64,000 nt of DNA, taken from positions 1 through 64,000 of the forward strand of contig JAFZMQ010000030.1 of NCBI GenBank assembly GCA_017551095.1, written 5' to 3'. Positions 20,057-61,130 of the stretch are shown piece after piece. Made by a program: the position numbers and the translations under genes. The stretch comes from Clostridia bacterium (GTDB taxonomy: Bacteria; Bacillota; Clostridia; UBA1381). The stretch's first letter is position 1. Every line of letters begins with the position of its first letter. The notes beneath the pieces are model-generated. The model ran no database searches, was not told where the DNA came from, and worked only from the letters and a program-made list of their open reading frames with translations.

Positions 20057-20156
20057 TTTACAATTTCCTCCTCATAAAATTAAATAAAAATTTCAACACT
20101 GATATTTTACAATATTTTTGCCAAAAAATCAAGTATTTTCCTAAAAATTCCTTGAT

Positions 20157-34559: not shown

Positions 34560-34577
34560 AAAAGACCGCAAATATTG

Positions 34578-34616
34578 ATATGCACCCCAAAAGTCTCTGA
34601 CTTTTGGGGTGCATAT
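34578..34616. repeat. perfect 18-bp inverted repeat
   Basis: ATATGCACCCCAAAAGTC/GACTTTTGGGGTGCATAT around a 3-base loop, 18 bases after the Dabb stop. There is no T-run, so it may terminate by another route or be a small repeat; it separates the metabolic genes from the peptide-export cluster. Confidence 0.8.
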
Positions 34617-34783
34617 CATTTGCTTATGTGGAAAATGTGGAAACTCAAACTGCACAAATATTGACATTTTCAATATTTTGTGTTAGCATATAATCATAAA
34701 ATGACTCTGTGCAAAAGGCAAGTACATGAGTATAAAAAAAGCCGTATTGTAATATAAAAATCTGCGTACGGAAAGGAGCAAAT

Positions 34784-35035
34784 ATGAAGACATTAGAGGA
34801 ATTTATCAACGAAATAAACGCTTCTAAGGAGTTGCAGGAGGAACTTAAAAACGCATCTTGCGAAATGCTGGACGCATTCTTAAAAAAACATGGTTGCGGT
34901 GCGACCGCCAAGGATTTTACCGCATTTATAAAGTCTAAGGCTGAGGGTGAAATTGAGGATGATGATGTCGAGGCGATAGCCGGAGGGATTTATTCCCAAT
35001 CAATAAAACCTCCTACACCTATGCCAATGCCGTAA
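34784..35035 (+). CDS. Nif11/NHLP-type leader peptide precursor 1
   Basis: 83 residues. The leader (residues 1-68) is helical and acidic, with the pattern ASKELQEELKNAS, FLKKHGCGATAKDF and EGEIEDDDVEAIAGG seen in Nif11-like leaders. The GG at 67-68 is the expected cut site for the C39 peptidase encoded downstream. The predicted core is IYSQSIKPPTPMPMP, Pro/Met-rich and free of Cys. Ribosome-binding site AAAGGAG. First gene of the export cluster. Confidence 0.88.
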   Translation: MKTLEEFINEINASKELQEELKNASCEMLDAFLKKHGCGATAKDFTAFIKSKAEGEIEDDDVEAIAGGIYSQSIKPPTPMPMP

Positions 35036-35048
35036 AAGGAGAATAGAT

Positions 35049-35303
35049 ATGAAAACTGCATATGAGTTTTATAAAGAAATAGTAGGTTCAAAAGAATTGC
35101 AGGAAGAGCTGAAAAACACATCTTGCGAAATGCTTGGAGTCTTCCTTAAAAAACATGACTGCATGGCAGACGCAAAAGAATTTAAAGCATTAGTAAGTGC
35201 ACAGTGTGAAGGCGAAATAGCGGATGAAGAGGCGGGAAATGCTTCCGGTGGTTATATGGTGGATTCTTGGCACTCCCGCATAGACACGAAGACGCCGATA
35301 TGA
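35049..35303 (+). CDS. Nif11/NHLP-type leader peptide precursor 2
   Basis: 84 residues. The leader matches precursor 1 closely (GSKELQEELKNTSCEMLG, FLKKHDCMADAKEF) but the processing site reads NASGG. Predicted core YMVDSWHSRIDTKTPI, aromatic and charged, no Cys. It starts 13 bases after the previous stop, the gap holding only the AAGGAG ribosome-binding site. Confidence 0.88.
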   Translation: MKTAYEFYKEIVGSKELQEELKNTSCEMLGVFLKKHDCMADAKEFKALVSAQCEGEIADEEAGNASGGYMVDSWHSRIDTKTPI

Positions 35304-35333: not shown

Positions 35334-35510
35334 ATGAAACCTACAAAAAAAACAAACAAGGAATTAGAATATTCAGAGGGATTGCAGGAAAAAGTGAAAA
35401 ACACTTCCGATGGCGAACTTACAGATGACGATGCACAGGCTGCCACAGGCGGCATTTTTCCAATTTTTTCCGGTCTGGAAGAAACAGGTGGTACATATAA
35501 ACCGATTTGA
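35334..35510 (+). CDS. precursor 3 with an internally shortened leader
   Basis: 58 residues. It keeps the start of the Nif11-like leader (SEGLQEKVKNTS) and its end (GELTDDDAQAATGG) but lacks the middle 24 or so residues that hold the FLKKHDC...DF helices in its neighbours. The strong AGGAGGG ribosome-binding site and intact frame argue that it is expressed. Predicted core IFPIFSGLEETGGTYKPI, with a second GG inside. It may be a decayed copy or a leader with altered recognition. Confidence 0.8.
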   Translation: MKPTKKTNKELEYSEGLQEKVKNTSDGELTDDDAQAATGGIFPIFSGLEETGGTYKPI

Positions 35511-35552: not shown

Positions 35553-35822
35553 ATGAAAACAATGGAAGAATTCTACAAAGAAATGGCCGGTTCAAAAGAG
35601 TTGCAGAAGGAACTCAAAAACACATATGAAGAAATGCTGAAAACCTTTTTGAAAAAGCATGATTGCAATGCAAGTGTTAAGGATTTCCTCGCATATGTCG
35701 AAGCACAAAAAGAAGGCGAAATAAGAGACGGAGATGCCCAAGCGGTTGCAGGTGGAATACCGTTGTTTAGTCAGTATCATCCGCAAATAAGCATTTTAAA
35801 ATATTTTGAAAAAAAATCCTGA
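35553..35822 (+). CDS. Nif11/NHLP-type leader peptide precursor 4
   Basis: 89 residues. Leader: MEEFYKEMAGSKELQKELKN, FLKKHDCNASVKDF, EGEIRDGDAQAVAGG (GG at 67-68). Predicted core IPLFSQYHPQISILKYFEKKS, 21 residues long in full, amphipathic with a basic end, no Cys; by composition the most bacteriocin-like of the set. Confidence 0.88.
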   Translation: MKTMEEFYKEMAGSKELQKELKNTYEEMLKTFLKKHDCNASVKDFLAYVEAQKEGEIRDGDAQAVAGGIPLFSQYHPQISILKYFEKKS

Positions 35823-35848: not shown

Positions 35849-36112
35849 ATGAAAACAATAGAAGAGTTTTACAAGGAAATAGCAAGTTCAAAGGACTTGC
35901 AGGAGGAATTAAAAAAGCTATCGGAAGAAGCCCTCTTGAAATTTTTACAAAAGCATGACTGTAAAGCTTCTGCAAAAGATTTTGCTGATTTTGCAAAATC
36001 GCAAGAAGAAGGCGAAATACAAGATGATGCCGCAAAAGCAGCGGCAGGAGGATCCTTTGCCCCGGTGATGACGCCTCAGGCAGCTATTCATAAGCCGCAA
36101 GGGGTAGTATAA
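35849..36112 (+). CDS. Nif11/NHLP-type leader peptide precursor 5
   Basis: 87 residues. Leader: IEEFYKEIASSKDLQEELKK, FLQKHDCKASAKDF, EGEIQDDAAKAAAGG. Predicted core SFAPVMTPQAAIHKPQGVV, Pro/Ala-rich, no Cys. Last of the five precursors before the export genes. Confidence 0.88.
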   Translation: MKTIEEFYKEIASSKDLQEELKKLSEEALLKFLQKHDCKASAKDFADFAKSQEEGEIQDDAAKAAAGGSFAPVMTPQAAIHKPQGVV

Positions 36113-36152: not shown

Positions 36153-36377
36153 ATGAATAACAGTATTTTCAGACAAAAGAGTATCGACAAGGTTTCTTCA
36201 CCGGAAAAACTTGATGACTACATCAGGGTAACGACGCCGAGTGTGTGGATTACACTTGCGGCGATAGGTATCCTGCTTATCGGGACTATCGTGTGGGGGA
36301 TTTTTGGCGAACTTACGATACATAATGATGACGGAACGGCAGATACGGTCGCACCTATTTCATTTATCATAAATTAA
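36153..36377 (+). CDS. stub of the HlyD-like NHLP secretion protein
   Basis: 74 residues. The start MNNSIFRQKSIDKVSSPEKL and the membrane segment VWITLAAIGILLIGTIVWGIFGEL match the N-terminus of the NHLP-type secretion (membrane-fusion) protein, which is normally several hundred residues long with a coiled coil and beta-barrel. Here it ends 20 residues after the membrane segment. The next gene begins 12 bases after the stop, so no remnant of the missing part exists in another frame. It may be a minimal anchor for the transporter or a deletion product that is still translated. Confidence 0.75.
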   Translation: MNNSIFRQKSIDKVSSPEKLDDYIRVTTPSVWITLAAIGILLIGTIVWGIFGELTIHNDDGTADTVAPISFIIN

Positions 36378-36388
36378 GGTACTAACAT

Positions 36389-38569
36389 ATGGCAGATAAT
36401 AAAGTAAAACAGCCCGTCACAAAGGGCGTAGTAAAGGTACCGGTTGTAATGCAGATGGAGGCACTTGAATGCGGTGCGGCATCTCTTACAATGATTCTTG
36501 CTTATTACGGCAAATGGATACCTCTTGAACAGATCCGCGAGGATTGCGGTGTATCCCGTGACGGCTCGAATGCAAAAAACATACTGGTAGCGGCAAGAAG
36601 CTATGGCTTAGGTGCAAAGGCATACCGCTATAATCCGGAAAGACTTAAAGAAGTGGGCAGATTCCCAATGATTGTTCATTGGGAATTTAACCATTTTATT
36701 GTGGTGGACGGATTTAAGGGAGATAAAGTCTATGTGAACGATCCTGCCCGTGGGACTGTTGTAATGAGTTATGAGCAGTTTGACGAAGGCTATACGGGAA
36801 TCTGCCTTATGTTTGAGCCAACGGAGAGTTTTGAACCGTCCGGAAAACCAAAAAGTGTGTTACAGTTTGCAAAAAGCAGATTAAAAGGTGCATCGGTAGC
36901 GGTTACATTCGTGGCTGTTACTACTCTTATCGGTTCGCTCTGTGCTATCATTCTTTCGGGCTTTTCCCGAGTGTTTATAGACCGTATTCTTACAGGCAAT
37001 GATACAGAATGGCTGATGCCATTTATCGTAGGATTGTCGGCCCTGGCAATCGTGCAGGTGGTTGCTGCATGGATAAAGGCAATTTACTCTTTTAAAATTG
37101 ACGGTAAGATGGCAATTGTCGGAAATATGAATTATATGTGGAAGATATTGCGTCTTCCGATGAGGTTTTTTTCTCAGCGAATGGCGGGAGATATCCAGCT
37201 GAGACAGTTGTCGAATGCGAATATCGCAGGTACTTTGGTTAATACCCTGTCCCCTCTTGTGCTGGAAACATTGATGCTGATTTTTTATCTGTTTGTTATG
37301 ATAAGATATTCAATTATGCTTACACTTGTGGGTGTCATTTCCGTAATAGGACAGATATGGGTGTCCCGCATCATATCGAATAAGCGTATCAACATCACCC
37401 GCGTTATGATGCGTGATGCGGGAAAACTTGCCGGTACTACCGTATCCGGTATTGAGATGATTGAGACGATAAAAGCATCAGGTGCGGAAAACGGATTTTT
37501 TGAAAAGTGGTCGGGCTATCAGGCAAGTGTGAATACGCAGAATGTCCGATTTAAGAAAATCGACAGTTATCTGGGAATTATCTCTCCTATTCTTACGGCA
37601 CTAACCAATGATATTGTTTTGATTTTAGGAGTGTACCTGTGCATAACAGGCAAGTTTACGGTCGGTATGGTTATGGCATTTCAGGGCTTTCTTGCATCCT
37701 TCATGCAACCGGCACAGAAGATGATTGATGCCGGGCAGCAGGTGCAGGAGCTTCGTACCGAAATGGAGCGTGTCGAGGACGTGATGAAGTACCCGACTGA
37801 TGTGGATTTTAATGATGAAGAGATTGACGAGGATGCGGATTATGATAAGCTTTCGGGTAATGTGGAGCTGAAAAACATTACCTTTGGTTATTCAAGACTT
37901 GCGCCTCCTCTTATAGAAAATTTCAGTATGAAGTTAAAACCGGGCAGCAGAGTTGCTTTTGTAGGCTCATCCGGTTGCGGAAAATCCACCCTTGCAAAGC
38001 TGATATCAGGATTGTATCAGCCATGGGAAGGCGAGATTTTATTTGACGGAAAGCATATTAATGAAATCAACCGGAGCGTATTTACAGGTTCGGTTGCCGT
38101 TGTTGACCAGGACATCACTCTTTTTGAAGATACGATAGAAAACAATATAAAGATGTGGGATAACACCATAGAGGACTATGAAGTTATGATGGCTGCACGC
38201 GACGCACAAATCCATGATGATATCATGATGCGTGAGGGTGGATACAGATACAGACTCTCAGAGGGCGGCAGGGATTTCTCCGGAGGACAGCGGCAGCGTA
38301 TTGAGATTGCACGGGTTCTTGCCCAGGATCCCACGATTATTATTATGGATGAGGCGACGAGTGCACTGGACGCCAAGACAGAGTTTGATGTGGTAAATGC
38401 TGTAAAAGCACGTGACATCACCTGTATCGTAATTGCACATAGGTTGTCCACCATCCGCGACTGCGATGAAATCATAGTATTTGATCACGGTAAGGTGGTA
38501 GAGCGTGGCACACATGAGGAGTTAATGGCACTTGGCGGTGCATATACAGAATTGGTAACGAGTGAGTAG
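36389..38569 (+). CDS. NHLP-type peptide export ABC transporter with C39 peptidase (subunit 1)
   Basis: 726 residues, three domains. An N-terminal C39 peptidase (about 1-145) has oxyanion Gln 22, catalytic Cys 28 in ALECGAAS, His 102 in EFNHFIVV and Asp 118 in NDPARG, so it should cleave after the GG of the leader peptides. A six-helix permease follows (about 165-440). The ATPase has Walker A GSSGCGKST, signature FSGGQRQRIEIARV, Walker B IIIMDEATSALD and the H-loop. Gene order and fold match the NHLP bacteriocin peptidase/permease/ATPase family (TIGR03796-like). Expected to export the trimmed peptides with the next gene product. Confidence 0.93.
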   Translation: MADNKVKQPVTKGVVKVPVVMQMEALECGAASLTMILAYYGKWIPLEQIREDCGVSRDGSNAKNILVAARSYGLGAKAYRYNPERLKEVGRFPMIVHWEFNHFIVVDGFKGDKVYVNDPARGTVVMSYEQFDEGYTGICLMFEPTESFEPSGKPKSVLQFAKSRLKGASVAVTFVAVTTLIGSLCAIILSGFSRVFIDRILTGNDTEWLMPFIVGLSALAIVQVVAAWIKAIYSFKIDGKMAIVGNMNYMWKILRLPMRFFSQRMAGDIQLRQLSNANIAGTLVNTLSPLVLETLMLIFYLFVMIRYSIMLTLVGVISVIGQIWVSRIISNKRINITRVMMRDAGKLAGTTVSGIEMIETIKASGAENGFFEKWSGYQASVNTQNVRFKKIDSYLGIISPILTALTNDIVLILGVYLCITGKFTVGMVMAFQGFLASFMQPAQKMIDAGQQVQELRTEMERVEDVMKYPTDVDFNDEEIDEDADYDKLSGNVELKNITFGYSRLAPPLIENFSMKLKPGSRVAFVGSSGCGKSTLAKLISGLYQPWEGEILFDGKHINEINRSVFTGSVAVVDQDITLFEDTIENNIKMWDNTIEDYEVMMAARDAQIHDDIMMREGGYRYRLSEGGRDFSGGQRQRIEIARVLAQDPTIIIMDEATSALDAKTEFDVVNAVKARDITCIVIAHRLSTIRDCDEIIVFDHGKVVERGTHEELMALGGAYTELVTSE

Positions 38570-38572
38570 AGT

Positions 38573-40768
38573 ATGGGTTGGTTTGATGAACAAATAAAAG
38601 ACAGAATGAGAGCGGATAACGAGGCTTTCGAGGATTCCTTTGTAAGAGCTGCGGGAATTATTATGGGAAGCCGTCTTTCTGCTGCCATGAATGATCAGAG
38701 ACAGGCCGCAACCGATGCGATCGGGGAGATACTAAAAGCATATCATATACGCTCCCGAGAAGTTCCGGATAGCATTACAGATATGAATGAGACGCTGGAA
38801 TACCTGATGCGTCCTCATGGGATTATGCGTCGTAATGTTACTCTGGAAAAGGGTTGGTATAAAGATGCGGCAGGTCCAATGATAGGTACTTTAAAGGAGA
38901 GCGGCGATATTGTTGCGTTGATACCTGCCGGAATGGCGGGATACATAATGATTGACCCCAAATCAGGAACTCGGACAAAGGTCAGCCGTAGAAACGAAGA
39001 TGTGCTGGATCATGAAGCTATTGCTTTTTACAAGCCGTTTCCGTCCAAAAAGATCGGAATAGCAGGGCTTTTACGATTTATTGCAGAGAATATCACATCA
39101 GCGGATGCTGTAATGATTGTGGCGGCAACTCTTGCGGTTACACTGATCGGATTTTTGACGCCGAGGCTTAATAAGCTGCTGTTTTCGGATGTCATCGCGT
39201 CCGGCAGTATGCGTTCGCTTACCGCCATAGCGATTTTTATAATCTGTGTGTCTATAAGCTCGTTAATGCTGACAACCGTTAAGGAAATGATTGTATCAAG
39301 GCTTACGACACGCGTGGGCGTAATGGTAGACGCGGCGGCGATGATGCGTATTTTGTCGCTTCCGGCAGATTTTTTTAAGAATTACGGATCGGGAGAACTT
39401 GCAAACAGGGAAAGGTATATAAATCCTCTTGTGGAAAGTCTTTTGGAGGTTATATTTACCATAGGACTTACTTCTTTATTTTCCCTTGCATACATTACGC
39501 AGATATTTAATTACGCACCTGCCCTTGTAACTCCGGCTCTTTTTGTAATTACCGTTACGTTGATAATATCGGTAATATCCGCTATCATCCAGGTTAAAGT
39601 ATCGAGGGTTCAGATGGAACTTGCCTCCAAAGAAAGCGGCATGAGTTATGCACTTATTTCCGGTATCCAGAAAATCAAGCTGTCCGGTGCGGAAAAAAGA
39701 GCCTTTGCAAGATGGAGCAAAGCGTATAGCGAGAGTGCGAAGCTTTTATATGATTCGCCGACCTTTATAAAGGTGAATACGGCAATTACATTAGCGGTAA
39801 CGCTTGTCGGAACAATAGTAATATATTATGCTGCCGCAAAAAGCGGAGTATCAGTTTCGGAATATTATGCTTTTAATGTCGCATACGGCATGGTGAGCGG
39901 GGCATTTACGACTCTTGCCGGTATTACGCTTACTGCCGCACAAATAGGTCCGATTTTAGAGATGGCGTCGCCAATCCTTATGACCGAACCGGAAGTAGAT
40001 GAGGAAAAACAGGTAGTGGAACGACTGATGGGCGGCATTGAGCTTAATAATGTAACTTTTGCCTATAATGAGAATATGCCGAATGTTCTTGACGGTGTAT
40101 CCTTAAAGATAAGTGCGGGACAATATGTTGCAATCGTGGGTAAGACCGGATGCGGCAAATCGACGCTCATGCGAATTTTGCTTGGCTTTGAAAAACCGCA
40201 GCGTGGCGGTGTCTTCTATGACGGCAAGGATATTGAACGCATGGATTTAAAGTCGCTTCGCAGAAAAATCGGATCTGTTATGCAGTCGGGAAAACTTTTT
40301 ACAGGGGATATTTACTCAAATATCGTAATAAACAATCCCAGACTGACTCTTGACGAGGCTTGGGAAGCAGCCGAAATGGCGGGATTTGCGGACGATATCA
40401 GGAGTATGCCAATGGGAATGTTCACGCTTGTATCCGAGGGTCAGGGCGGTATATCCGGCGGTCAGCGGCAGCGGCTTTTGATTGCACGGGCGATTGCACC
40501 GAAGCCCAGAATACTGATGTTTGATGAGGCAACCAGTGCACTTGATAATATTACGCAAAAAATAGTGTCGGAGTCGCTGGAAAAACTAAAATGCACCCGT
40601 ATAGTAATTGCACACCGGCTTTCAACGATACGCCAATGTGACCGTATTATCGTGCTGGATAACGGACATATCGTAGAAGACGGAACCTATGATGAACTTA
40701 TAAATAAAAACGGGTTCTTTGCGGAGCTTGTTGAAAGACAAAGGGTAGATATTCAAGGAGGCAGATAA
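38573..40768 (+). CDS. NHLP-type export ABC transporter permease/ATPase (subunit 2)
   Basis: 731 residues. Instead of a peptidase it has an N-terminal soluble region of about 150 residues with a barrel-like segment (GPMIGTLKESGDIVALIPAGMAGYIMIDP), then six membrane helices and an ATPase: Walker A GKTGCGKSTL, signature ISGGQRQRLLIARA, Walker B ILMFDEATSALD. This is the second half of the heterodimeric NHLP exporter (TIGR03797-like). It starts 3 bases after subunit 1, and its last codons include the ribosome-binding site of the STAS gene. Confidence 0.92.
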   Translation: MGWFDEQIKDRMRADNEAFEDSFVRAAGIIMGSRLSAAMNDQRQAATDAIGEILKAYHIRSREVPDSITDMNETLEYLMRPHGIMRRNVTLEKGWYKDAAGPMIGTLKESGDIVALIPAGMAGYIMIDPKSGTRTKVSRRNEDVLDHEAIAFYKPFPSKKIGIAGLLRFIAENITSADAVMIVAATLAVTLIGFLTPRLNKLLFSDVIASGSMRSLTAIAIFIICVSISSLMLTTVKEMIVSRLTTRVGVMVDAAAMMRILSLPADFFKNYGSGELANRERYINPLVESLLEVIFTIGLTSLFSLAYITQIFNYAPALVTPALFVITVTLIISVISAIIQVKVSRVQMELASKESGMSYALISGIQKIKLSGAEKRAFARWSKAYSESAKLLYDSPTFIKVNTAITLAVTLVGTIVIYYAAAKSGVSVSEYYAFNVAYGMVSGAFTTLAGITLTAAQIGPILEMASPILMTEPEVDEEKQVVERLMGGIELNNVTFAYNENMPNVLDGVSLKISAGQYVAIVGKTGCGKSTLMRILLGFEKPQRGGVFYDGKDIERMDLKSLRRKIGSVMQSGKLFTGDIYSNIVINNPRLTLDEAWEAAEMAGFADDIRSMPMGMFTLVSEGQGGISGGQRQRLLIARAIAPKPRILMFDEATSALDNITQKIVSESLEKLKCTRIVIAHRLSTIRQCDRIIVLDNGHIVEDGTYDELINKNGFFAELVERQRVDIQGGR

Positions 40769-40769
40769 A

Positions 40770-41072
40770 ATGATTGTAACAACAAATCTTGACGGCACAA
40801 AATTGACCGTAACAGCGGAAGGAAAGCTTGGCACAACCTCGGCACCAGAGCTTGAAAATGCAGTAAAAAACAATATAAAAGATGTGACGGAGCTCATATT
40901 TGATTTTGAAAAACTCGAATATATGGCTTCCGCCGGACTCCGTGTGCTTTTGTCTGCTGCAAAGGTAATGAAAAAGCAAGGTAGCATGAAAATCATCAAT
41001 GTCACGGAACCTGTTATGGATGTTTTCACCTTCACAGGTATGGCGGATGTTATGGATATTGAGAAACTATAA
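40770..41072 (+). CDS. STAS-domain anti-sigma-factor antagonist
   Basis: 100 residues, a single STAS domain (VTAEGKLGTTSAPELENAV; LIFDFEKLEYMASAGLRVLLSAAKVM). Ser 54 in MASAGLRV is the position phosphorylated in SpoIIAA/RsbV-type antagonists. The RsbW-like kinase and SpoIIE-type phosphatase needed to phosphorylate and dephosphorylate it are both encoded in this operon. ATG 40770 is one base after the stop of the export gene, with AAGGAGG inside that gene's end. Confidence 0.92.
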   Translation: MIVTTNLDGTKLTVTAEGKLGTTSAPELENAVKNNIKDVTELIFDFEKLEYMASAGLRVLLSAAKVMKKQGSMKIINVTEPVMDVFTFTGMADVMDIEKL

Positions 41073-41097
41073 GGGACGGAATTGAAAGGGTATTTTT

Positions 41098-42963
41098 ATG
41101 AAATCAAATAAAAGGAAAATATCGCTTATCATAACAATATGGCTTACCGTGATTGTCATGGCGGCATGTGCTGTATCGGCAGCACTTACATATTTTACAC
41201 TTTCCCGACGGGCTGAGAGGCAGACAACGGCACTTATCAAGCAGAATGTTGAGGATGTCAGCACCGATATTGGCGAAATGGCAGACGACGCTCTCCTGTC
41301 CTATATTGACCAGTTCATAGAAAGCGAGTACATATATTCAGCCAAAATAGATAACCCTGATGCACTTTCAAAAGAGCTTCATGATTATTATACGGACTAC
41401 GGTATTGAAGTCAATGTCGTTAATACCGATGGGATTATTATTGTATCGTCTGTTCCGGAATATATCGGATTTGATATGCATACAGGCGAACAAGCGTCAG
41501 AATTTCTGGTGCTTCTTGACGGCAGTACGGACGAATATGTTCAGGATATGAAGAGCATATCTTATGATGAATCTATACTGATGAAATATGCAGGTAAACG
41601 ATTCCACGACGGGAGCGGATTTTTAGAAATCGGACTTACAAATAAAGTTTACTATGATGAGATAAGCAGACAGGGAAAATATGCCGCCACTAACAGAAGA
41701 ATAGGCGAGAACGGCTACCTGCTCATATGCGGTGCGGATATGAATATTCTGAACAGCTATCATAACGAATACACCGGAAAGAACATTTCAGATGCGGGAA
41801 TAGTCATAGACCCTGATAAAGAGTATTCATATGAGACTAAACGGTGTGATGTTTTTGGCGTTCCGAGCTACATAAATATCAATCAGGTCAAGGGAATATA
41901 TGTTATTGGCGTCTATTCCGTAAGGGAAGCAATCACCAGTGTCAATACTATGATGAGTGCGTCAGTTATGCTTGAAGTCATTGTATTTGCAATTCTGTTT
42001 GTGGCACTTATCATCTTATTAAGAAAACTAATTGTCAATAATATGGTAAAGGTCAACGATGCACTTGCCCAGATTACAGAGGGAAATCTTGATGAGAAGA
42101 TTGATGTGCGTGATACCTATGAGTTTGATACTCTTTCCAATGATATTAACGCAACTGTTGATAAATTAAAGGAATACATTGCAGAGGCGGCAGCCCGTAT
42201 AGATGCGGATCTTGAAATCGCAAAGGCAATACAGACTTCTGTTTTGCCGAATGTATTTCCGCCTTTCCCCGATCGGAATGAGTTTGAACTGTTTGCCAGT
42301 ATGTACGCGGCTAAGGAAGTTGGCGGTGATTTCTACGACTTCTATATGATTAACGAAGATACACTCGGGTTTTTGATTGCGGATGTATCCGGCAAGAGTA
42401 TCCCCGGTGCTATGTTTATGATGACAGGCAAAACTATTATTAAGAGTCTTGCAGAGAGCGGATTGCCTCCGGCAGATGTATTCACTATCGCAAATGAAAA
42501 GCTATGCGAAGGAAATGATGCAGGATTGTTTATTACCGCATGGATGGGATATTTAGATCTTAAAACGGGAGTTTTACATGTTGCTAACGCAGGGCATAAT
42601 CCGCCGGTTTTAATCCGTGACGGAAAAGCCGAATATGTTACGCTTAAACCCGGTCTCGTACTTGCCGGTATGGACGGTATGGTTTATAAGGAACAGACTG
42701 TGCAGCTTCAAAAAGGGGACATTCTCTATCTTTACACGGACGGTGTGACAGAAGCGATGGATGCGGAGGAAAAGCTGTACGGTGAAGACAGGCTGAAAAA
42801 GCTGCTATCCTTTGGGGAAAAATATCCTGTTCCCGCAGACAAAAACGGCGTAGCAGGAGCCGTATGCAAACTTGTCAAAGATGAGGTCGACGCGTTTGTT
42901 CGGGGAGCGGAGCAGTCGGACGATATTACAATGCTATGCGTAAAATATTTGGGCAAACCGTAA
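41098..42963 (+). CDS. membrane sensor phosphatase: Cache-like sensor, HAMP and SpoIIE-type PP2C
   Basis: 621 residues. TM1 (about 9-31), an extracellular Cache-like sensor (35-285; EVNVVNTDGIIIVSSVPEYIG and NRRIGENGYLLICGADMNIL are typical), TM2 (about 288-312), HAMP (to about 365), a short coiled linker, then a PP2C domain with metal-ligand motifs EVGGDFYD, IADVSGKSIPGAMFM, TDGVTEAMD and SDDITML. It should dephosphorylate the STAS protein in response to an outside signal. Because it is co-transcribed with the export genes, the exported peptide itself is a candidate signal; that is inference. Confidence 0.92.
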   Translation: MKSNKRKISLIITIWLTVIVMAACAVSAALTYFTLSRRAERQTTALIKQNVEDVSTDIGEMADDALLSYIDQFIESEYIYSAKIDNPDALSKELHDYYTDYGIEVNVVNTDGIIIVSSVPEYIGFDMHTGEQASEFLVLLDGSTDEYVQDMKSISYDESILMKYAGKRFHDGSGFLEIGLTNKVYYDEISRQGKYAATNRRIGENGYLLICGADMNILNSYHNEYTGKNISDAGIVIDPDKEYSYETKRCDVFGVPSYININQVKGIYVIGVYSVREAITSVNTMMSASVMLEVIVFAILFVALIILLRKLIVNNMVKVNDALAQITEGNLDEKIDVRDTYEFDTLSNDINATVDKLKEYIAEAAARIDADLEIAKAIQTSVLPNVFPPFPDRNEFELFASMYAAKEVGGDFYDFYMINEDTLGFLIADVSGKSIPGAMFMMTGKTIIKSLAESGLPPADVFTIANEKLCEGNDAGLFITAWMGYLDLKTGVLHVANAGHNPPVLIRDGKAEYVTLKPGLVLAGMDGMVYKEQTVQLQKGDILYLYTDGVTEAMDAEEKLYGEDRLKKLLSFGEKYPVPADKNGVAGAVCKLVKDEVDAFVRGAEQSDDITMLCVKYLGKP

Positions 42964-42979
42964 GAAAGGAGAAATTAAA

Positions 42980-43207
42980 ATGACAAAGGAGCAAACCTAT
43001 AAGAAAATTGTCGGATCGGAGGAACTTTCTGACAGGTTCAACAGCATAAAGGACAAATCCACATTACAATCTTTTCTTTTGGAGATTGGTTATGATGCCG
43101 ATGCGGAAGATTTTATCAGCTATGTGAAAAGTATGTATGAGGGCGAGGTCGACGATCAGACTGCACAGGATATAGCCGGTGGAAAGCAGAAATATCCGTC
43201 CCTTTGA
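42980..43207 (+). CDS. Nif11-like leader peptide 6, with a very short core
   Basis: 75 residues. It resembles the other leaders in layout (IVGSEELSDRFNSIKDK, FLLEIGYDADAEDFISYV, EGEVDDQTAQDIAGG) but is the most diverged and lacks the KKH(G/D)C motif. Only KQKYPSL follows the GG. It sits between the phosphatase and kinase genes, away from precursors 1-5, so it may be a signal for the circuit rather than a bulk product. Ribosome-binding site GAAAGGAG. Confidence 0.85.
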   Translation: MTKEQTYKKIVGSEELSDRFNSIKDKSTLQSFLLEIGYDADAEDFISYVKSMYEGEVDDQTAQDIAGGKQKYPSL

Positions 43208-43236
43208 TCGCTACGGCAGGAATTTGGTTGGGTACT

Positions 43237-43644
43237 ATGAAAGAACTAACTTTAAAAGCCATACCCGAGAATGTAGATAAAGCAATCGGGTTCGTGGATG
43301 AAATTCTCGAAGAATACGGATGCGGGATGAAGGAACAAATGGCGATTGATGTGGCGGTAGATGAGCTTTTTGCGAATATCGCACATTATGCGTATGATTC
43401 CGAAACCGGATATGCAACGGTTAAGGCAGAAGTGATAACGGAGCCGTTATCGGTGAAAATCACTTTTATTGATAGCGGAAAGCCTTATAATCCTCTTGCA
43501 AAAGCTGATCCCGATACAACACAGTCGGTTGAGGACCGCAAGATTGGCGGCATGGGGATTTTTATCGTCAAAAAGAGTATGGATGACATACATTATGAAT
43601 ATAAGGACAATCAAAATATTCTGACGATTACTAAGAAGCTATAA
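43237..43644 (+). CDS. RsbW-like serine kinase / anti-sigma factor (HATPase_c_2)
   Basis: 135 residues of the GHKL fold: N-box DVAVDELFANIAHYAY, G1 FIDSGKPYNPL and G2 GGMGIFIVKKSMD, as in SpoIIAB/RsbW. It should bind ATP, phosphorylate the STAS partner and hold an unknown target, classically a sigma factor; no sigma gene is in the cluster. The start MKELTLKAIPENVDKA at ATG 43237 suits the family, although its ribosome-binding site is weak; the open frame reaches back to TTG 43204, overlapping the stop of leader 6. Confidence 0.87.
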   Translation: MKELTLKAIPENVDKAIGFVDEILEEYGCGMKEQMAIDVAVDELFANIAHYAYDSETGYATVKAEVITEPLSVKITFIDSGKPYNPLAKADPDTTQSVEDRKIGGMGIFIVKKSMDDIHYEYKDNQNILTITKKL

Positions 43645-43674: not shown

Positions 43675-44088
43675 ATGCGTGAAATAAACGGAAAAGTATA
43701 TGAAGAAAAGAAACCGCATGATATAGCGGAACTGCTTGAAATAGTCGCAGTTTTGCGTAGCCCCGAGGGTTGTCCTTGGGACAGGGAGCAGACGCACGAA
43801 ACCATGAAAAAATGCCTTTTGGATGAGACAGACGAAGTGATTTCAGCAATCGACAAAAAGGATGACGAGAATTTGCGTGAAGAGCTTGGAGATGTACTTT
43901 TGCAGGTGCTGTTAAACTGTGAAATTGCAAAGGAGCGGAAGGCTTTTGATTTCGCTGATGTTGTGCAGACGCTTTCGGAAAAGCTGATACGCCGTCACCC
44001 GCATGTTTTTGGAGACATTGAACGCCCAAAAACTCCCGAGGAAAGCCTGAAACTTTGGCAATCGGTAAAAAAGACCGAGAAAGAATAA
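43675..44088 (+). CDS. single-domain MazG nucleotide pyrophosphohydrolase
   Basis: 137 residues. CPWDREQTHETMKKCLLDETDEV contains the ExxE-type metal-binding helix, and LREELGDVLLQVLLNC the second (E-x3-D). MazG removes pyrophosphate from (d)NTPs, possibly including house-cleaning substrates. It follows the kinase gene by 30 bases without a visible promoter, so it may be read from the export operon by position only. Half the size of two-domain MazG. Confidence 0.9.
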   Translation: MREINGKVYEEKKPHDIAELLEIVAVLRSPEGCPWDREQTHETMKKCLLDETDEVISAIDKKDDENLREELGDVLLQVLLNCEIAKERKAFDFADVVQTLSEKLIRRHPHVFGDIERPKTPEESLKLWQSVKKTEKE

Positions 44089-44094
44089 AAAAAA

Positions 44095-44130
44095 TCCGCC
44101 AGACTTATTTTTAAGTTTTGGCGGTTTTAA
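44095..44130. terminator. terminator between mazG-like and dacF-like genes
   Basis: TCCGCCA at 44095-44101 pairs with TGGCGG at 44119-44124, extended inside by ACTT/AAGT, with TTTTAATT after it. Serves the export operon and the convergent dacF-like gene. Confidence 0.78.
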
Positions 44131-55179: not shown

Positions 55180-55659
55180 CTATTCTTCTTCCGAAAGGTC
55201 AAGACCGTCCAAAAGGTCCGGAGCGGCTTCCGTTTCGGGTTTTTCCTGCTTTTTGGAAGTCTTTTTAGATGGCTTTTCCTCATCTTTAAAGTGTACGCCG
55301 TCAATGTGTATGTTAACTTTTGAAATGCTTATTCCCGTCATTGTTTCGACGCTGTTTTTTACATTTTCCTGAATATTCCAGGAAAGCTCCGGAATACGAA
55401 CGCCGAACTCAACGGTTAAATACAAATCTATTATTGAGCCTTCGGGCTTAATGTCAACCTTAACGCCCTTTTGCAGACTCTTTTTTGCTCCTAATTTTTC
55501 GGCAATCCCTGCGGCAACGCTTCCTGACATACAGTAAACGCCGTCAATTTCACTTGCGGCAATACCGGCTATGGCAGCAACAACATCATCGGAAATATTT
55601 ACATTTCCGCCGTCTTCCTTCAAGGTAACTTCATCAATTATCTTTTTGTTATCTTCCAT
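55180..55659 (-). CDS. Asp23/Gls24-family envelope protein
   Basis: 159 residues. The Asp23 domain (about 8-115) has NVNISDDVVAAIAGIAASEIDGVYCM and GVKVDIKPEGSIIDLYLTVEFGVRIPELSWNIQENVKNSVETMTGI. The C-terminal 40 residues are a charged Lys/Glu tail (KKTSKKQEKPETEAAPDLL). The family includes Asp23 of Staphylococcus and AmaP partners linked to cell-envelope stress. In many Clostridia an asp23 gene follows spoIIIAH, as here 76 bases downstream. ATG 55659 is preferred to the upstream start at 55707. Confidence 0.9.
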   Translation of the reverse strand: MEDNKKIIDEVTLKEDGGNVNISDDVVAAIAGIAASEIDGVYCMSGSVAAGIAEKLGAKKSLQKGVKVDIKPEGSIIDLYLTVEFGVRIPELSWNIQENVKNSVETMTGISISKVNIHIDGVHFKDEEKPSKKTSKKQEKPETEAAPDLLDGLDLSEEE

Positions 55660-55735
55660 AATTATTTTCAATCCTTTCTGAAAACAGGTATGCTTATCCT
55701 TAGACAATTATATCAAACGGCGAAGAAGATTGCAA

Positions 55736-56290
55736 CTATTTTGCCTCAATTATTTTAATATTCTTAGCAGAGGTATCAAGCTCCGATGTCACAATTTCTT
55801 TTAAGGTTTTTGCATCATCGCTTGAAAAATTGTCCTTCTTTACTATTATTTCCACACTTTCGCCGTCAATATACACGGAAATATTTTTATATCCTTTCGC
55901 CTTTGCTAAATTTTCGATTATTGTTTCCTTTTCGGTATTTTCGGCGATAGAAACTATTTTATCCTGTGCCTGACGCCTGACATCGCCGTCAAAGCTTTCG
56001 TTTGTTGCGGTTTGGTTTAAAATTTCCAAAGCCCGTGAGCGTGAATTATCCTTGGAAAGCTTCGCTTCGGAAAAATATTCCTCCAAAATGGGATTTGCGG
56101 AAACATCGGTAACTTCACTTTGAGGGTTTGAAACAAGCTCTGCTTCACCGAGCTTTTTTGCCTCCTCTAAATAGCTTTCTCCGTCAGATACCTTTATTGT
56201 GTCCTGATATGACCAATTCAGGTATCCCGCAACCCCGATAAGTACGACCAGTGCCGTTGCAATAACTTCCTTTTTTTTGAGAACCATCAT
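55736..56290 (-). CDS. spoIIIAH: stage III sporulation protein AH
   Basis: 184 residues. A single N-terminal membrane segment (VIATALVVLIGVAGYLNW) is followed by an intermembrane region with a YscJ/FliF-like ring-building fold (DGDVRRQAQDKIVSIAENTEKETIIENLAKAKGYKNISVYIDG). SpoIIIAH on the mother-cell side pairs with SpoIIQ from the forespore to form the feeding-tube channel; a SpoIIQ-like gene is at 27.2 kb. Last gene of the operon. Confidence 0.95.
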   Translation of the reverse strand: MMVLKKKEVIATALVVLIGVAGYLNWSYQDTIKVSDGESYLEEAKKLGEAELVSNPQSEVTDVSANPILEEYFSEAKLSKDNSRSRALEILNQTATNESFDGDVRRQAQDKIVSIAENTEKETIIENLAKAKGYKNISVYIDGESVEIIVKKDNFSSDDAKTLKEIVTSELDTSAKNIKIIEAK

Positions 56291-56293
56291 AAT

Positions 56294-56776
56294 TTAATTC
56301 CTTTCCTTTCCTTCTAAAACGCATATTTTGTGTGACGAAACTTCAAGCACAGCCGCCGCCGCATCGGAAAGCGATTTTTTTACCGTACTGCTTACAGGTC
56401 CGCTTGAAACAATGATTACACCCTTTACCTTTGGGTAAAACTCGGATTTGATAAAAGGTGAATTTCCGTCCATAACAACCGAGTTTTCAGAGGAAACCTC
56501 GCCTCTCTTTTCCTCAAACTCCAAATCATACCCCGTAGTACCGTAATATGTAATCATAACGCTTACCTTACCCGCTCCCGAAACCTTGGAAAGTATTTCA
56601 GAAAGCCGTGCCTCGTCTGAATATTCATCATACTTTTGCGGTTTTGAATTATCGTTTTTTTCTCCGCCAAAGCTTGGCAGAAGCATAAAAACAATTCCAA
56701 TTATAATTATTATATACAGGCTTTTATTATTCACATATTTTGATAAAAAGTCATTTAATTTTGAATTCAATTCTGT
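56294..56776 (-). CDS. spoIIIAG: stage III sporulation protein AG
   Basis: 160 residues from GTG 56776, nine bases after TGAGG; a GTG at 56794 is the alternative. One membrane segment (SLYIIIIIGIVFMLLP), then a ring-forming domain with LSEILSKVSGAGKVSVMITYYGT and KVKGVIIVSSG, typical of SpoIIIAG. It forms an oligomeric ring in the mother cell-forespore channel. It overlaps spoIIIAF by 26 bases. Confidence 0.94.
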   Translation of the reverse strand, partial: TELNSKLNDFLSKYVNNKSLYIIIIIGIVFMLLPSFGGEKNDNSKPQKYDEYSDEARLSEILSKVSGAGKVSVMITYYGTTGYDLEFEEKRGEVSSENSVVMDGNSPFIKSEFYPKVKGVIIVSSGPVSSTVKKSLSDAAAAVLEVSSHKICVLEGKERN

Positions 56777-57185
56777 CACAGCCGTAAACCTCACTAAGTC
56801 TTTTTACTGCATTTTCAGGGACTTTTTTTGATAATGCTATCCTTGTAACGCCCCGTATTTTATGCTCCTTGTCTATATCTAAAAGGACATCGGCGTCTGC
56901 TTTTATGCCAAATTCTGCCCTTAGTCTTTCGCTGATGTCCGCCTCAACATTTTCTTTGAGCTTTTGCGAAATACCGTCTAAAAAAAGGGCGGTGTTTTGG
57001 GCGGATTCGCTTTTTAAGGGTTCGAGCTTTAAGCTCTTTATTTTAGGCAGGGGCGAAAGAATGACAAGCATTATCAAAAATCCCAAAAGCACACGGATAT
57101 ATTTTTGATGCTCTTTTGGCGAAAGAATGTCGGACAAAGCGGCAATAACCGCAGCTATGCAAAGGCTTATTACATATCCTTTCAA
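56751..57185 (-). CDS. spoIIIAF: stage III sporulation protein AF
   Basis: 144 residues. Two N-terminal membrane helices (VISLCIAAVIAALSDIL; VLLGFLIMLVILSPL), then a soluble domain of about 90 residues ending RLSEVYGCDRIEFKI. Starts at TTG 57185, overlapping the spoIIIAE stop by four bases (TTGA), which implies translational coupling. Confidence 0.93.
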   Translation of the reverse strand: MKGYVISLCIAAVIAALSDILSPKEHQKYIRVLLGFLIMLVILSPLPKIKSLKLEPLKSESAQNTALFLDGISQKLKENVEADISERLRAEFGIKADADVLLDIDKEHKIRGVTRIALSKKVPENAVKRLSEVYGCDRIEFKIK

Positions 57186-58246
57186 AAGCTCACCCCCGAC
57201 GATAAAAGGATTATAGAAATTGAAATAACAAATAAAAGGGTTGCCGTTATTACCGCCACAAACAGCATTTTTACGGCTTCCGATACCGATAGGAGCATTT
57301 TTACAACACGCTTTTCGGAAAAGGGCTCGATAATTGCGGCAGTTGCTTTTAATAAAAGCATCATAATTAGTATTTTAAGGGCGGGTGAAAAAGCAATCCC
57401 AAAAAGCGTAATCATACCCGCTGTTCCGACTGCGTTTTTCAGTAAATTCGCACCTGACAAAACCGTTTCAACAGTATCGGAAAGGATGCCTCCAACTATC
57501 GGCACAAGACTTCCGACGGCGAATTTAAGACCTTTTGTTGCAACCGCGTTAAAGGCTTTTGTGCTGAATCCGTAAAGCGACAAAATGGCGGAAAAAAGGG
57601 TTAAAAGCCCTGTCAAAAGCCATTTTGAAACGGAAGAAAGAAATTTTGTGAGCGTTTCTATTTCTATTCTGTCGCTTATATTCCCTGCAAAAGCCAAAAT
57701 GGCGGAGAAGCAGCAGACGGGAAGAATACATTTATCTATCAAAAGCCCCAAAACATAAACACTTGCCATAAGCACAGGCTGAAACGCCGCCGCCTGAGTA
57801 ACCGCTCCGCTCGTTATAAGCATTGATATAAAAATCGGCTCAAATTTAGTTATGAAATCGCAGATATTATGTATCGCCTGTGCAGCATAGCCGAAAGTTT
57901 CCGAAAAGATTTTGACAAGGGGCAGGGAGATAAGCAGAAAACAGGCAAGTCCTGCCGTTTCAGCAGTTCCCGAAGCCTCAAACGAGCTTGAAAGTATACG
58001 CACGATACCTGCCGCAACCGATAAAACTAAAACGGTTTTCAAAAGACTTTTTGTATTATTAAGCTCTTTAAAAAAACTTGAAAAAAGACCGTTTATAATG
58101 TCAATGGGATTCAAGCTGAAATCCCCGCTTGTAATGCTTTTTACAGTAGTATTAAAGGTTTCGTTTCCCGTTATTTCATAATCTTCCGCATAGACGGGGG
58201 ACAGGGTTATCAGAAAAATGAAAATGCAAAAAATGATTTTTCTCAT
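57182..58246 (-). CDS. spoIIIAE: stage III sporulation protein AE
   Basis: 354 residues. A signal-like N-terminus (IIFCIFIFLITLSPVYAE) is followed by about eight membrane segments, with the conserved AAGIVRILSSSFEASGTAETAG and VGSLVPIVGGILSDTVETVLSGA regions. It is the polytopic channel component of the SpoIIIA complex. ATG 58246 is behind AGGAGC. Confidence 0.95.
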   Translation of the reverse strand: MRKIIFCIFIFLITLSPVYAEDYEITGNETFNTTVKSITSGDFSLNPIDIINGLFSSFFKELNNTKSLLKTVLVLSVAAGIVRILSSSFEASGTAETAGLACFLLISLPLVKIFSETFGYAAQAIHNICDFITKFEPIFISMLITSGAVTQAAAFQPVLMASVYVLGLLIDKCILPVCCFSAILAFAGNISDRIEIETLTKFLSSVSKWLLTGLLTLFSAILSLYGFSTKAFNAVATKGLKFAVGSLVPIVGGILSDTVETVLSGANLLKNAVGTAGMITLFGIAFSPALKILIMMLLLKATAAIIEPFSEKRVVKMLLSVSEAVKMLFVAVITATLLFVISISIILLSSGVSF

Positions 58247-58254
58247 TGCAGCTC

Positions 58255-58647
58255 CTAAAAATCGGCAAGTGTGTCCAAAATTGCGGATAACAGTCCGCTT
58301 ATAATCGGCATCATAAGTGCAATTATGCTTATTTTTCCGGCGAGTTCGAGTTTTTTTGAAAGCAGACTCTCATTTGCGTCCTTTGCAAGTTCTGAGGCAA
58401 ATTGTGTTATGTACGCAATACCGATAATTTTTATAACCGCCTTTACATAAACGCTGCCCAAAAGTGCATTTTCCGAAAGATTTTTTATGCCCGACACAAT
58501 ATCCTGCATTGCGGGAACGGTATAAAAAAGCAGCAAAAATGCCGTAGAAAGTGCGGTTAAAACGCCAAGCTCCGCCTTGTATGCACGAACAGTCATTGAA
58601 AAAAATGTACCGATTATGCCGATTGAAATTATCTTAAAAATGTCCAT
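58255..58647 (-). CDS. spoIIIAD: stage III sporulation protein AD
   Basis: 130 residues, four membrane segments, with LGSVYVKAVIKIIGIAYITQFASELAKDANESLLSKKLELAGKI as the family region. A membrane component of the spoIIIA channel. It begins 2 bases after spoIIIAC ends. Confidence 0.95.
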   Translation of the reverse strand: MDIFKIISIGIIGTFFSMTVRAYKAELGVLTALSTAFLLLFYTVPAMQDIVSGIKNLSENALLGSVYVKAVIKIIGIAYITQFASELAKDANESLLSKKLELAGKISIIALMMPIISGLLSAILDTLADF

Positions 58648-58649
58648 AG

Positions 58650-58844
58650 CTATAAGTCAAAAATCTGCTTTATAGACTCAAAAAGACCGCCTATTTCGGA
58701 GGTTAAGACATAAAGCACGACGATAAGTCCTGCGATTGTTGTTAAAAGTGCCTGTTCCTCACGTCCCGAGCGGATAAGGAGCTGATTTAATACTGCGACG
58801 ACAATTCCTACACCCGCAACCTTAAAAATCAAGTCAACATTCAT
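58650..58844 (-). CDS. spoIIIAC: stage III sporulation protein AC
   Basis: 64 residues from ATG 58844 behind GAAAGGAA: MNVDLIFKVAGVGIVVAVLNQLLIRSGREE and LTTIAGLIVVLYVLTSEI form two membrane helices, the standard size and sequence of SpoIIIAC. The longer frame starting at 58883 overlaps spoIIIAB and is rejected. Confidence 0.95.
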   Translation of the reverse strand: MNVDLIFKVAGVGIVVAVLNQLLIRSGREEQALLTTIAGLIVVLYVLTSEIGGLFESIKQIFDL

Positions 58845-58855
58845 AGTTTTCCTTT

Positions 58856-59350
58856 CTATACCATAAGAAGTGCGATTAAACAACCTAACAAAAAGCCCAT
58901 ATTCCTGTATAATTTCCCGTATTTTTCATAATCGGAATAAGCGGAAACGCGTGAAGACGCCAAAAGCTCTTTTGTATGCAAAATACTGCTTATTTGAAAA
59001 TCCTTATTGATAGAGCCCAAATTTTGCGAAAACTCCAAAAGAATTTCCCTGTCCGACTTTGAAAGGCACATATCGTCATTTTTAAGTGCATTTGAAAATG
59101 CCTGAAAGGCGGACGAGTTTTTGAGATTTTCGGCAATGCTCCTGAAAAAAGGAAGATTTTCCATAACCCCGACAGATAATAGTGCTGATGAAATATCCTT
59201 TTCGCAGTAGGAAATTTCGTTTTCCAAAAGATTTAATGAGGATATTATTGTCAGCAGACTGTCACACCGCTTTTTGAGCCTTTCTGATTTTGAAACGCCC
59301 CATATTCCAAAGGCGGAAACTATTAAAACCGCTCCGAAAAATTTAAGCAT
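58856..59350 (-). CDS. spoIIIAB: stage III sporulation protein AB
   Basis: 164 residues. N-terminal membrane helix (FFGAVLIVSAFGIWGVS), a helical cytoplasmic region related to GspF-type proteins, and a C-terminal helix (MGFLLGCLIALLMV). Overlaps the end of spoIIIAA by 8 bases. Confidence 0.93.
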   Translation of the reverse strand: MLKFFGAVLIVSAFGIWGVSKSERLKKRCDSLLTIISSLNLLENEISYCEKDISSALLSVGVMENLPFFRSIAENLKNSSAFQAFSNALKNDDMCLSKSDREILLEFSQNLGSINKDFQISSILHTKELLASSRVSAYSDYEKYGKLYRNMGFLLGCLIALLMV

Positions 59351-60194
59351 AAATGCCTATTCCTTTAAGATTTATTGTTTCGTCAAATTCGGGAAGAGTT
59401 ATGTTTTTGCCGTGAATACTTGTGATTATGCTGACGCCACGCCGTTTTATTTCAGCTATTGCGGAAAAATCGCCGCTGTCCCCGATTTCGTCGGTTATTA
59501 TGACATCAGGGGACATAGACCGTAACATAAAGAGCATACCGTCCGCCTTTTTTGTGCCGCTTAATACATCACAGCCATACCCCAAATCAAAAGGCGAAAA
59601 ACCGCCGTGTAAAGAGGCAATTTCACCACGCTCATCAACGATTGAAACACGCTTTCCCATAAGGGAAAGATTTCTTGCAATATCCCGAAGCAGTGTGGTT
59701 TTTCCGTACATTGGAGGGGAAACAATAACGGTATTTTTAATAAATCCGCCTCCCGCAATCCTGTCCATAAGCCCGTCGGAACAACCGACAAATTCCCGTG
59801 CAAAACGGTAGTTAAGAGCCTGTATGCTCTTTAAATGCGTTATTTTTCCGTCCGATAAACACGCCTCGCCGCATATGCCGACACGGTGACCGCCGGGGAG
59901 AGTGACAAACCCGTTTTTTATCTCATTTTCATAAGCGTACATTGAAAAGTTGGTTATAAGCTCCAATGCCCGTTTTATGTCCCGCTCATTCACGATAATA
60001 CCGTCTTTATTTTCGGGTGAGGTGACAAAAAAGCATCCGTTTTGGCTGACGGCACACAGTCTTCCGCCAAGACGCAGACGAAGCTCCAAAAGCCTGTCCG
60101 TATCGACATATTTCAGCTGCTCCCGTATCCTTTCGGGAAGAGCTGAAAGTAGGGAATATGTGCTTTTTGTACTTTCTTTTGCAAGTGTAAACAT
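59343..60194 (-). CDS. spoIIIAA: stage III sporulation protein AA, secretion-type ATPase
   Basis: 283 residues from ATG 60194, behind AGAGGTG. The ATPase core reads SPPMYGKTTLLRDIARNL, then VSIVDERGEIASLHGG and PDVIITDEIGDSGD (Walker B-like). The first Walker A residue is Ser where homologues usually have Gly, but GKTT is intact. SpoIIIAA is thought to energise the channel that supports forespore transcription. First gene of an eight-gene operon in the standard order AA to AH. Confidence 0.95.
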   Translation of the reverse strand: MFTLAKESTKSTYSLLSALPERIREQLKYVDTDRLLELRLRLGGRLCAVSQNGCFFVTSPENKDGIIVNERDIKRALELITNFSMYAYENEIKNGFVTLPGGHRVGICGEACLSDGKITHLKSIQALNYRFAREFVGCSDGLMDRIAGGGFIKNTVIVSPPMYGKTTLLRDIARNLSLMGKRVSIVDERGEIASLHGGFSPFDLGYGCDVLSGTKKADGMLFMLRSMSPDVIITDEIGDSGDFSAIAEIKRRGVSIITSIHGKNITLPEFDETINLKGIGIYA

Positions 60195-60244
60195 TTTGTC
60201 CACCTCTTTCACAATATACTATGCCGAAAAGCAAAAAGTAGAAC

Positions 60245-60267
60245 AAAAAAAGAAGGCTTTTGCCTTC
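60245..60267 (-). terminator. terminator of sigG, before the spoIIIA operon
   Basis: GAAGGC/GCCTTC stem with an AAAA loop on the minus strand and a seven-base T-run. It overlaps the last codon of sigG, separating it from spoIIIAA, so the spoIIIA operon needs a promoter within 60195-60250; GGCATAGTATATT there (60207-60219, minus strand) resembles a sigma-E -10 region. Confidence 0.85.
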
Positions 60268-61033: not shown

Positions 61034-61130
61034 ATACATATCCCCCTTTTTTGAAATTATGTAACGGGATATATCGGAAAATATGTATATCTTTATTATT
61101 TTCAATTTTTTTGTGGGTTATACTTTTTGC

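Follow-up and report, generated by a model that had tools for sequence, protein, structure and literature searches.

A peptide export operon with a partner-switching trio

The DNA analyzed here, hereafter the window, is a 64,000-nucleotide stretch from a Clostridia bacterium of the GTDB lineage UBA1381 (assembly GCA_017551095.1, contig JAFZMQ010000030.1, positions 1 to 64,000 of the forward strand). The assembly from which it was taken, a gut-type Clostridia genome, spans 1.37 Mb and is 80.7% complete. One operon, at ~34.66–44.13 kb, combines a peptide exporter with three proteins of the partner-switching type: a STAS protein, a SpoIIE phosphatase and a serine kinase, together called the trio below. 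Its genes lie 1 to 42 bases apart, with terminator-like hairpins at both ends, and encode in order five Nif11-like precursors, a HlyD-like protein of 74 amino acids (aa), two NHLM exporter subunits, the STAS protein, the SpoIIE phosphatase, a sixth precursor, the kinase and MazG. The features are as follows.

34576..34618, plus strand: terminator-like hairpin of 20 pairs, directly upstream of the operon
34661..34694, plus strand: promoter-like site of the housekeeping type at the operon head (TTGACA, spacing of 17, TAGCAT with TG; an overlapping TATAAT), a consensus match only
34784..35035, plus strand: Nif11-like precursor 1, leader ending in IAGG, core IYSQSIKPPTPMPMP (TIGR03798, E 5e-6; sequence)
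35049..35303, plus strand: Nif11-like precursor 2 (similar leader; sequence)
35334..35510, plus strand: Nif11-like precursor 3, shortened to 58 aa (sequence)
35553..35822, plus strand: Nif11-like precursor 4 (similar leader; relatives in L041)
35849..36112, plus strand: Nif11-like precursor 5 (similar leader; relatives in L041)
36153..36377, plus strand: HlyD-like membrane protein of 74 aa with one helix (TIGR03794, positions 1–44 only)
36389..38569, plus strand: NHLM exporter subunit 1 with C39 peptidase (TIGR03796, 938.8 bits, above the cut-off of 853.3)
38573..40768, plus strand: NHLM exporter subunit 2, or ABC2 (TIGR03797, 745 bits, above the cut-off of 709.4)
40770..41072, plus strand: STAS switch protein with phosphosite Ser54 (TIGR00377, 68.1 bits, cut-off 53.45; PF01740, E 8e-13)
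41098..42963, plus strand: membrane phosphatase composed of a transmembrane segment, a dCache sensor (aa 36–284), a second transmembrane segment, HAMP and a PP2C/SpoIIE domain (aa 420–617; PF07228, E 6e-46)
42980..43207, plus strand: Nif11-like precursor 6, 75 aa, ending in GGKQKYPSL, core KQKYPSL (leader likeness to precursors 1–5 by eye; double glycine)
43237..43644, plus strand: predicted RsbW-like HATPase_c_2 serine kinase, 135 aa (PF13581, E 3e-23; active-site residues retained)
43675..44088, plus strand: MazG, final gene of the transcription unit (PF03819); in L041 it does not accompany the trio
44095..44127, plus strand: terminator-like hairpin past the operon (fold −16.3 kcal/mol)

L-numbers denote loci collected in this analysis; L041 is a relative often used as comparator.

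Ser54 of the STAS protein lies within the motif MASAGLR, and the phosphosite serine is retained in 59 of 60 STAS domains from exporter loci. In an alignment of 14 sequences the phosphatase has the invariant PP2C aspartates (D411, D429, D548, D608 and D609), and its modelled catalytic domain superposes on the RsbU domain of Rv1364c with Z 27.4 and a root-mean-square deviation (rmsd) of 2.2 over 223 residues. The HAMP domain scores 23.9 bits, slightly below the cut-off of 25. The kinase, which likely starts at the ATG at 43237 (a TTG at 43204 overlaps the preceding open reading frame), retains the equivalents of the catalytic residues Glu46 and Asn50 of SpoIIAB. Judged by phosphosite and catalytic residues, the phosphatase, STAS protein and kinase are a predicted intact partner-switching module. 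A preliminary description had named these three proteins and their domains from the sequence alone, and the profile matches and the sensor model described below bear it out. It had also placed the trio directly after the exporter with gaps of 1 to about 30 bases; the measured gaps are 1 (ABC2 to STAS), 25 (STAS to SpoIIE), 16 (SpoIIE to precursor 6) and 29 bases (precursor 6 to kinase). Its view that the trio is built into the export operon agrees with a single unit between terminators, an intact trio, and recurrence in relatives with rearranged gene order.

The scan for signals also returned weak terminator-like and promoter-like sites within the operon. Overall it yielded 11 terminator-like sites versus 8.0 expected by chance, and 32 promoter-like sites versus 22.9 expected (standard deviation 4.6). 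The promoter total is thus about two standard deviations above chance, so internal promoters in the operon are possible. In a comparison with L041, no −35 and −10 boxes clearly common to the promoters of the two loci were found.

Recurrent linkage of trio and exporter

The preliminary description had proposed co-occurrence of exporter and trio across genomes as a check. We collected NHLM-type loci from the family, a class-wide sample of 391 genomes and named GTDB contigs, and read their flanks with profiles built in this analysis. Counts were limited to loci whose available sequence reached 7.6 kb upstream of ABC2 and 6 kb beyond it, and phosphatase–kinase fusions were counted. Among 43 loci with an ABC2 at least 50% identical to that of the window, 31 had one or more trio genes, 20 had two or more and 14 had the full set of three. 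At least one trio gene was present in 2 of 14 more distant NHLM loci (at least two in 0/14) and in none of 13 loci in which related exporters are linked to giant proteins (Fisher p = 0.0003 and 3e-6, respectively). Among the close exporters, therefore, the analysis did not give the outcome that the preliminary description had named as refuting its view, namely trio and exporter apart in most relatives, or separate promoters. Nearly all trio genes (79/80) were co-directional with the exporter. The 43 loci held 18 kinases, versus ~1 expected by chance from a PF13581 density of ~4.1 per genome (148 class genomes) and an assumed mean genome size of 2.45 Mb. The named contigs were retrieved for their similarity to exporters of this family, and the counts are thus not informative on NHLM systems at large. 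Related loci are also non-independent; when they were merged at 75% identity, trio genes were present in 22 of 43 clusters, 13 of which had two or more. At the genome level, a close kinase was present in 9 of ~16 NHLM genomes versus 31 of 275 others (p ~4e-5, an approximate value because the overlap of genomes between the two samples was inferred). The link between exporter and trio is not due to chance.

The arrangement varied between loci. The trio lies 3′ of ABC2 in L041, L068, L069, L071, L073 and L133 and before HlyD in L085, L091 and L108, and the trio gene that adjoins the exporter is STAS in 19 loci, the kinase in seven and the phosphatase in three. In a kinase tree, built from a short alignment and with many weak forks, the window falls in a supported clade of six that is exporter-linked throughout, and linkage changes 14 times over the tree. 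Repeated linkage with varied order, together with these 14 changes, indicates that trio and exporter came together or parted on several occasions, which is in keeping with a functional tie. The window kinase (43237–43644) is only 75% identical to its counterpart at L041:6087–6494, while the STAS proteins are 95% and the exporters 91–95% identical. Precursor 6 lies directly before the window kinase, and a local replacement of the kinase is possible.

The trio might share the operon for co-expression only and steer something else, such as an enzyme in which STAS is fused to an APH-type phosphotransferase. The kinase class is indeed common without an exporter (40 of 291 genomes of the class have a close kinase), and contig C39 of this genome (G000) carries a further trio together with a STAS-APH protein. 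Repeated co-directional linkage in varied gene order nevertheless goes beyond what co-inheritance of one event would give, and we consider this explanation improbable. The second trio (L062, contig C39, 8750–12851) is not exporter-linked; after it come an HD_4 protein (HD domain) and the STAS-APH fusion.

The kinase class and candidate sigma partners

Against the curated equivalog models for SpoIIAB and RsbW, the window kinase scores 39.2, 34.2 and 32.5 bits for cut-offs of 145, 155 and 135, respectively, all far below. Searches of solved structures with the kinase sequence gave weak SpoIIAB matches only (E 0.11). The positions of SpoIIAB Arg20 and Lys41 are occupied by Ile and Asp (B. subtilis reference sequences were used for residue numbering). 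Arg20 is described as a sigma contact near the antagonist site (PMC10345196), and its equivalent in RsbW, Arg23, binds RsbV Asp23 (PMC7340262). None of 67 kinases of the class has Arg20 (0/36 exporter-linked and 0/31 unlinked), and Lys41 is likewise replaced; all four controls have Arg20, these being SpoIIAB/RsbW-like kinases of other Clostridia (two adjoining a detected sigma gene) together with B. subtilis SpoIIAB. Asp23 is gone from 10 of 60 STAS domains, including those of the window clade. A paired loss of kinase Arg20 and STAS Asp23 was considered as a marker of the class and rejected, as only the kinase side is lost throughout. These scores and residues set the kinase apart from standard anti-sigma-F/B factors.

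The preliminary description had also stated that there is no sigma gene locally. This is correct for the operon, in which none was found; at 17 kb from the trio, however, the window encodes SigG (60266–61105, minus strand). We rejected SigG as a local target, since it lies in a spoIIIA cluster on the opposite strand and belongs to the sporulation machinery. This spoIIIA-like cluster with SigG (55180–61105, minus strand) shows that sporulation genes are present despite the small genome. The fetched exporter loci held 39 kinases, none of which had a sigma gene within 1.5 kb, and no sigma gene was found at the loci of unlinked kinase homologues.

A gene for an ECF-type sigma factor of ~160 aa is present in many related exporter loci, either directly after ABC2 (L042, L081, L096, L108, L120, L141, L155 and L161) or at the operon head (L068, L069 and L071). 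As a partner of the trio it was rejected: it occurs in about a quarter of exporter loci, with the trio in 8/33 and without it in 6/24 (p = 1.0). No ECF sigma gene was found in the window or in L041. Elsewhere in the genome, an orphan sigma gene of the SigB/F/G type on contig C5 was set aside, being near-universal over 70 genomes of the family and not tied to a close kinase. Of the other PF08281 matches in the genome, one on contig C22 is YlxM, and the rest (C35, C37 and another on C22) score below the cut-off. Neither SpoIIAB nor SigF was found in the assembly, which is incomplete (80.7%).

The kinase could still be an anti-sigma factor whose partner has its gene elsewhere, either the C5 orphan (SigB/F type) or an ECF sigma, with a regulon that may include the operon. 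In its favor are the architecture of the trio, which is that of RsbU/V/W, the presence of an orphan SigB/F/G-type sigma in this genome, and the occurrence of ECF sigma genes together with the trio in L068, L069, L081, L091, L108 and others. Against it, the C5 sigma and the ECF genes are distributed independently of the kinase and trio, and the promoter-like site of the operon is of the housekeeping type. The scores far below cut-offs, the loss of Arg20 and Lys41, and the lack of adjacent sigma genes make a sigma-type target less likely. We regard this alternative as unlikely, though it has a real share of the probability.

Sensor, exported peptides and output of the switch

The extracellular sensor of the phosphatase received no Pfam call. 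An AlphaFold2 model of the sensor alone (predicted local distance difference test score 87, predicted template modelling score 0.74) best matches the tandem-Cache (dCache) domains of chemoreceptors and Chlamydia RsbU, with E 3e-10 to 6mni and Z scores of 14.3 to 6iop and 12.2 to Chlamydia RsbU (for the latter two, rmsd 8–9 across ~220 residues). The label Cache given in the preliminary description is right, because the model resembles tandem-Cache structures. The solved dCache domains nearest to the sensor bind amino acids and other small ligands. The idea that this sensor type is exclusive to exporter-linked phosphatases was rejected, as weaker matches were seen in 4 of 17 unlinked phosphatases, and L202, which was not called as a phosphatase, matches with 215 bits. 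The same sensor type is found with 367 bits on a 1321-aa mechanosensitive-channel protein (L126:15769–19731) at an NHLM locus with an ECF sigma.

Precursor 1 scores 26.8 bits against TIGR03798, below the cut-off of 32.3, and the other precursors were assigned by similarity to it. Precursor 6, a gene that was not listed in the preliminary description, lies between phosphatase and kinase; a family-profile search of the window proteins gave no match for it. In L041 there is no precursor at this place, and in L068 and L071 a precursor directly precedes the STAS gene. Among the open reading frames read from ~20 to 52 kb, no gene for a peptide-modifying enzyme was recognized, and the cores may accordingly leave the cell as plain peptides.

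These features bear on a further suggestion, made in the preliminary description, of a closed secretion-sensing loop. The dCache sensor would bind an exported core (for example KQKYPSL) and the switch would report export to the cell, an arrangement that fits either kind of output. The extracellular sensor, the position of precursors inside or next to the trio, and cores that may be unmodified speak for it. The small ligands of the nearest dCache domains speak against it, as do the weaker sensor matches on phosphatases away from exporters and the strong one on the channel protein. In addition, the L041 sensor is 83% identical to that of the window, yet L041 lacks a precursor between phosphatase and kinase. 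We consider such a loop improbable.

The reading that we prefer, tentatively and at somewhat less than an even chance, is a partner switch that acts on the export system without a sigma factor. In the proposed mechanism, the operon would make, cleave and export short double-glycine peptides and would carry its own phospho-switch. Binding of a ligand to the dCache domain outside the cell would alter the activity of the PP2C phosphatase via HAMP and a helical linker, and the balance of phosphatase and kinase would set the phosphorylation state of STAS Ser54. STAS, or the kinase released by STAS, would then act directly on the exporter, the precursors or an associated enzyme, and export would be switched by protein binding. 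The proposed steps from ligand to phosphatase activity to Ser54 state are those expected from known families. We infer the direction of the signal and also the target, the latter because the trio is linked to the exporter, often adjoins it and lacks sigma features. Gene content, the single operon, intact active-site residues, the modelled dCache fold and recurrent linkage support this reading, as do the lost sigma-contact residues, the lack of adjacent sigma genes and the enzyme-fused STAS domains of relatives. Several points weigh against it. ECF sigma genes are present in related exporter operons; across NHLM loci in general the trio is rarer (3/18 in the class sample); the loss of Arg20 may be compatible with another way of binding a sigma factor; and a partner may be absent from the assembly, which is 80.7% complete.

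STAS-APH phosphotransferase fusions were found in L107, L137, L192 and on C39 of this genome. In L179:331–1899, L181:313–1899, L187:1501–3105, L196, L197:1495–3108 and L131:13068–14663, STAS, an APH-type phosphotransferase and the kinase form one chain, possibly a one-chain partner switch with enzyme output. STAS is also joined to an AMP-binding enzyme, with loss of the phosphosite (L117:3463–5382), and to proteins with a weak methyltransferase-like match (L128:13672–14982 and 20135–21370). The STAS-enzyme fusions suggest that the STAS domain of this class can pass its state to an enzyme. A broader proposal, which we hold to be possible but doubtful, is that Clostridia have a widespread class of sigma-free partner switches, with a kinase that lacks the sigma-docking surface and with STAS, free or fused to an enzyme such as APH, as the output; in this exporter family, on sensing a ligand outside the cell, the switch would act directly on a peptide ABC exporter or on its precursors.

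All parts of the operon belong to known families. The same three protein types, with a phospho-serine, PP2C metal residues and kinase catalytic residues, make up RsbU/RsbV/RsbW and SpoIIE/SpoIIAA/SpoIIAB of Bacillus; the window differs in its low-scoring kinase without Arg20 and Lys41, in having no adjacent sigma gene, and in its STAS motif, which is SAGLR instead of the Bacillus-type DS[ST]G[LIM]G. By analogy, the closest precedent for this switch would be BtrU/BtrV/BtrW of Bordetella (with the ECF sigma BtrS), in which SpoIIE phosphatase, STAS protein and serine kinase are likewise encoded with a secretion machine. BtrU/V/W are reported to act on type III secretion, and none of the three is described as its negative regulator (PMC7498569, PMC8256260). 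The likeness is one of analogy only, kinase homology with BtrW not having been compared, and Btr is a Gram-negative type III system with protein cargo, whereas the window has a peptide ABC exporter with precursors and no ECF sigma at the locus. For SypA/SypE of Vibrio fischeri, the output is the STAS protein itself, which acts on an unknown target (PMC8256260), but SypE combines kinase and phosphatase in one protein and the process is biofilm formation. The exporter resembles the NHLM/Nif11-type systems of Haft 2010 (PMC2887384) in its two subunits above cut-offs and, putatively, in leaders of the Nif11 kind with double-glycine sites; it differs in the HlyD-like protein of only 74 aa, in having no modifying enzyme recognized nearby and in the partner-switch trio, which that paper does not mention. 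In the open-access literature searched, we found no description of NHLM or Nif11 systems linked with STAS or SpoIIE, nor of this combination of partner switch and NHLM exporter.

Partner switching is best known for sigma control, and several systems (Btr, Syp) have unknown outputs. The exporter linkage of a kinase class without the known sigma contacts, together with STAS-enzyme fusions, provides concrete candidates for non-sigma output and a handle on the trigger of Nif11-like peptides in Clostridia of the gut and rumen.

Further observations concern the exporter and the surroundings of the operon. The HlyD-like protein scores 41.8 bits against TIGR03794 (cut-off 156.2) and thus falls short of the full-length form, for which the family model has 421 positions. 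We rejected the view that it is a pseudogene, since short forms are conserved among related loci: L041, L066–L073 and others encode a one-helix protein of 72–96 aa. A second exporter pair of the same superfamily, without a trio, is present in this genome (L057, contig C11, 1537–13951) and in L044–L061; its usual neighbor is a protein of ~2,000–2,750 aa, and upstream are smaller proteins of ~290 and ~390 aa. The operon is flanked by translation, transport and sporulation genes, and its last gene, MazG, is probably unrelated to the switch.

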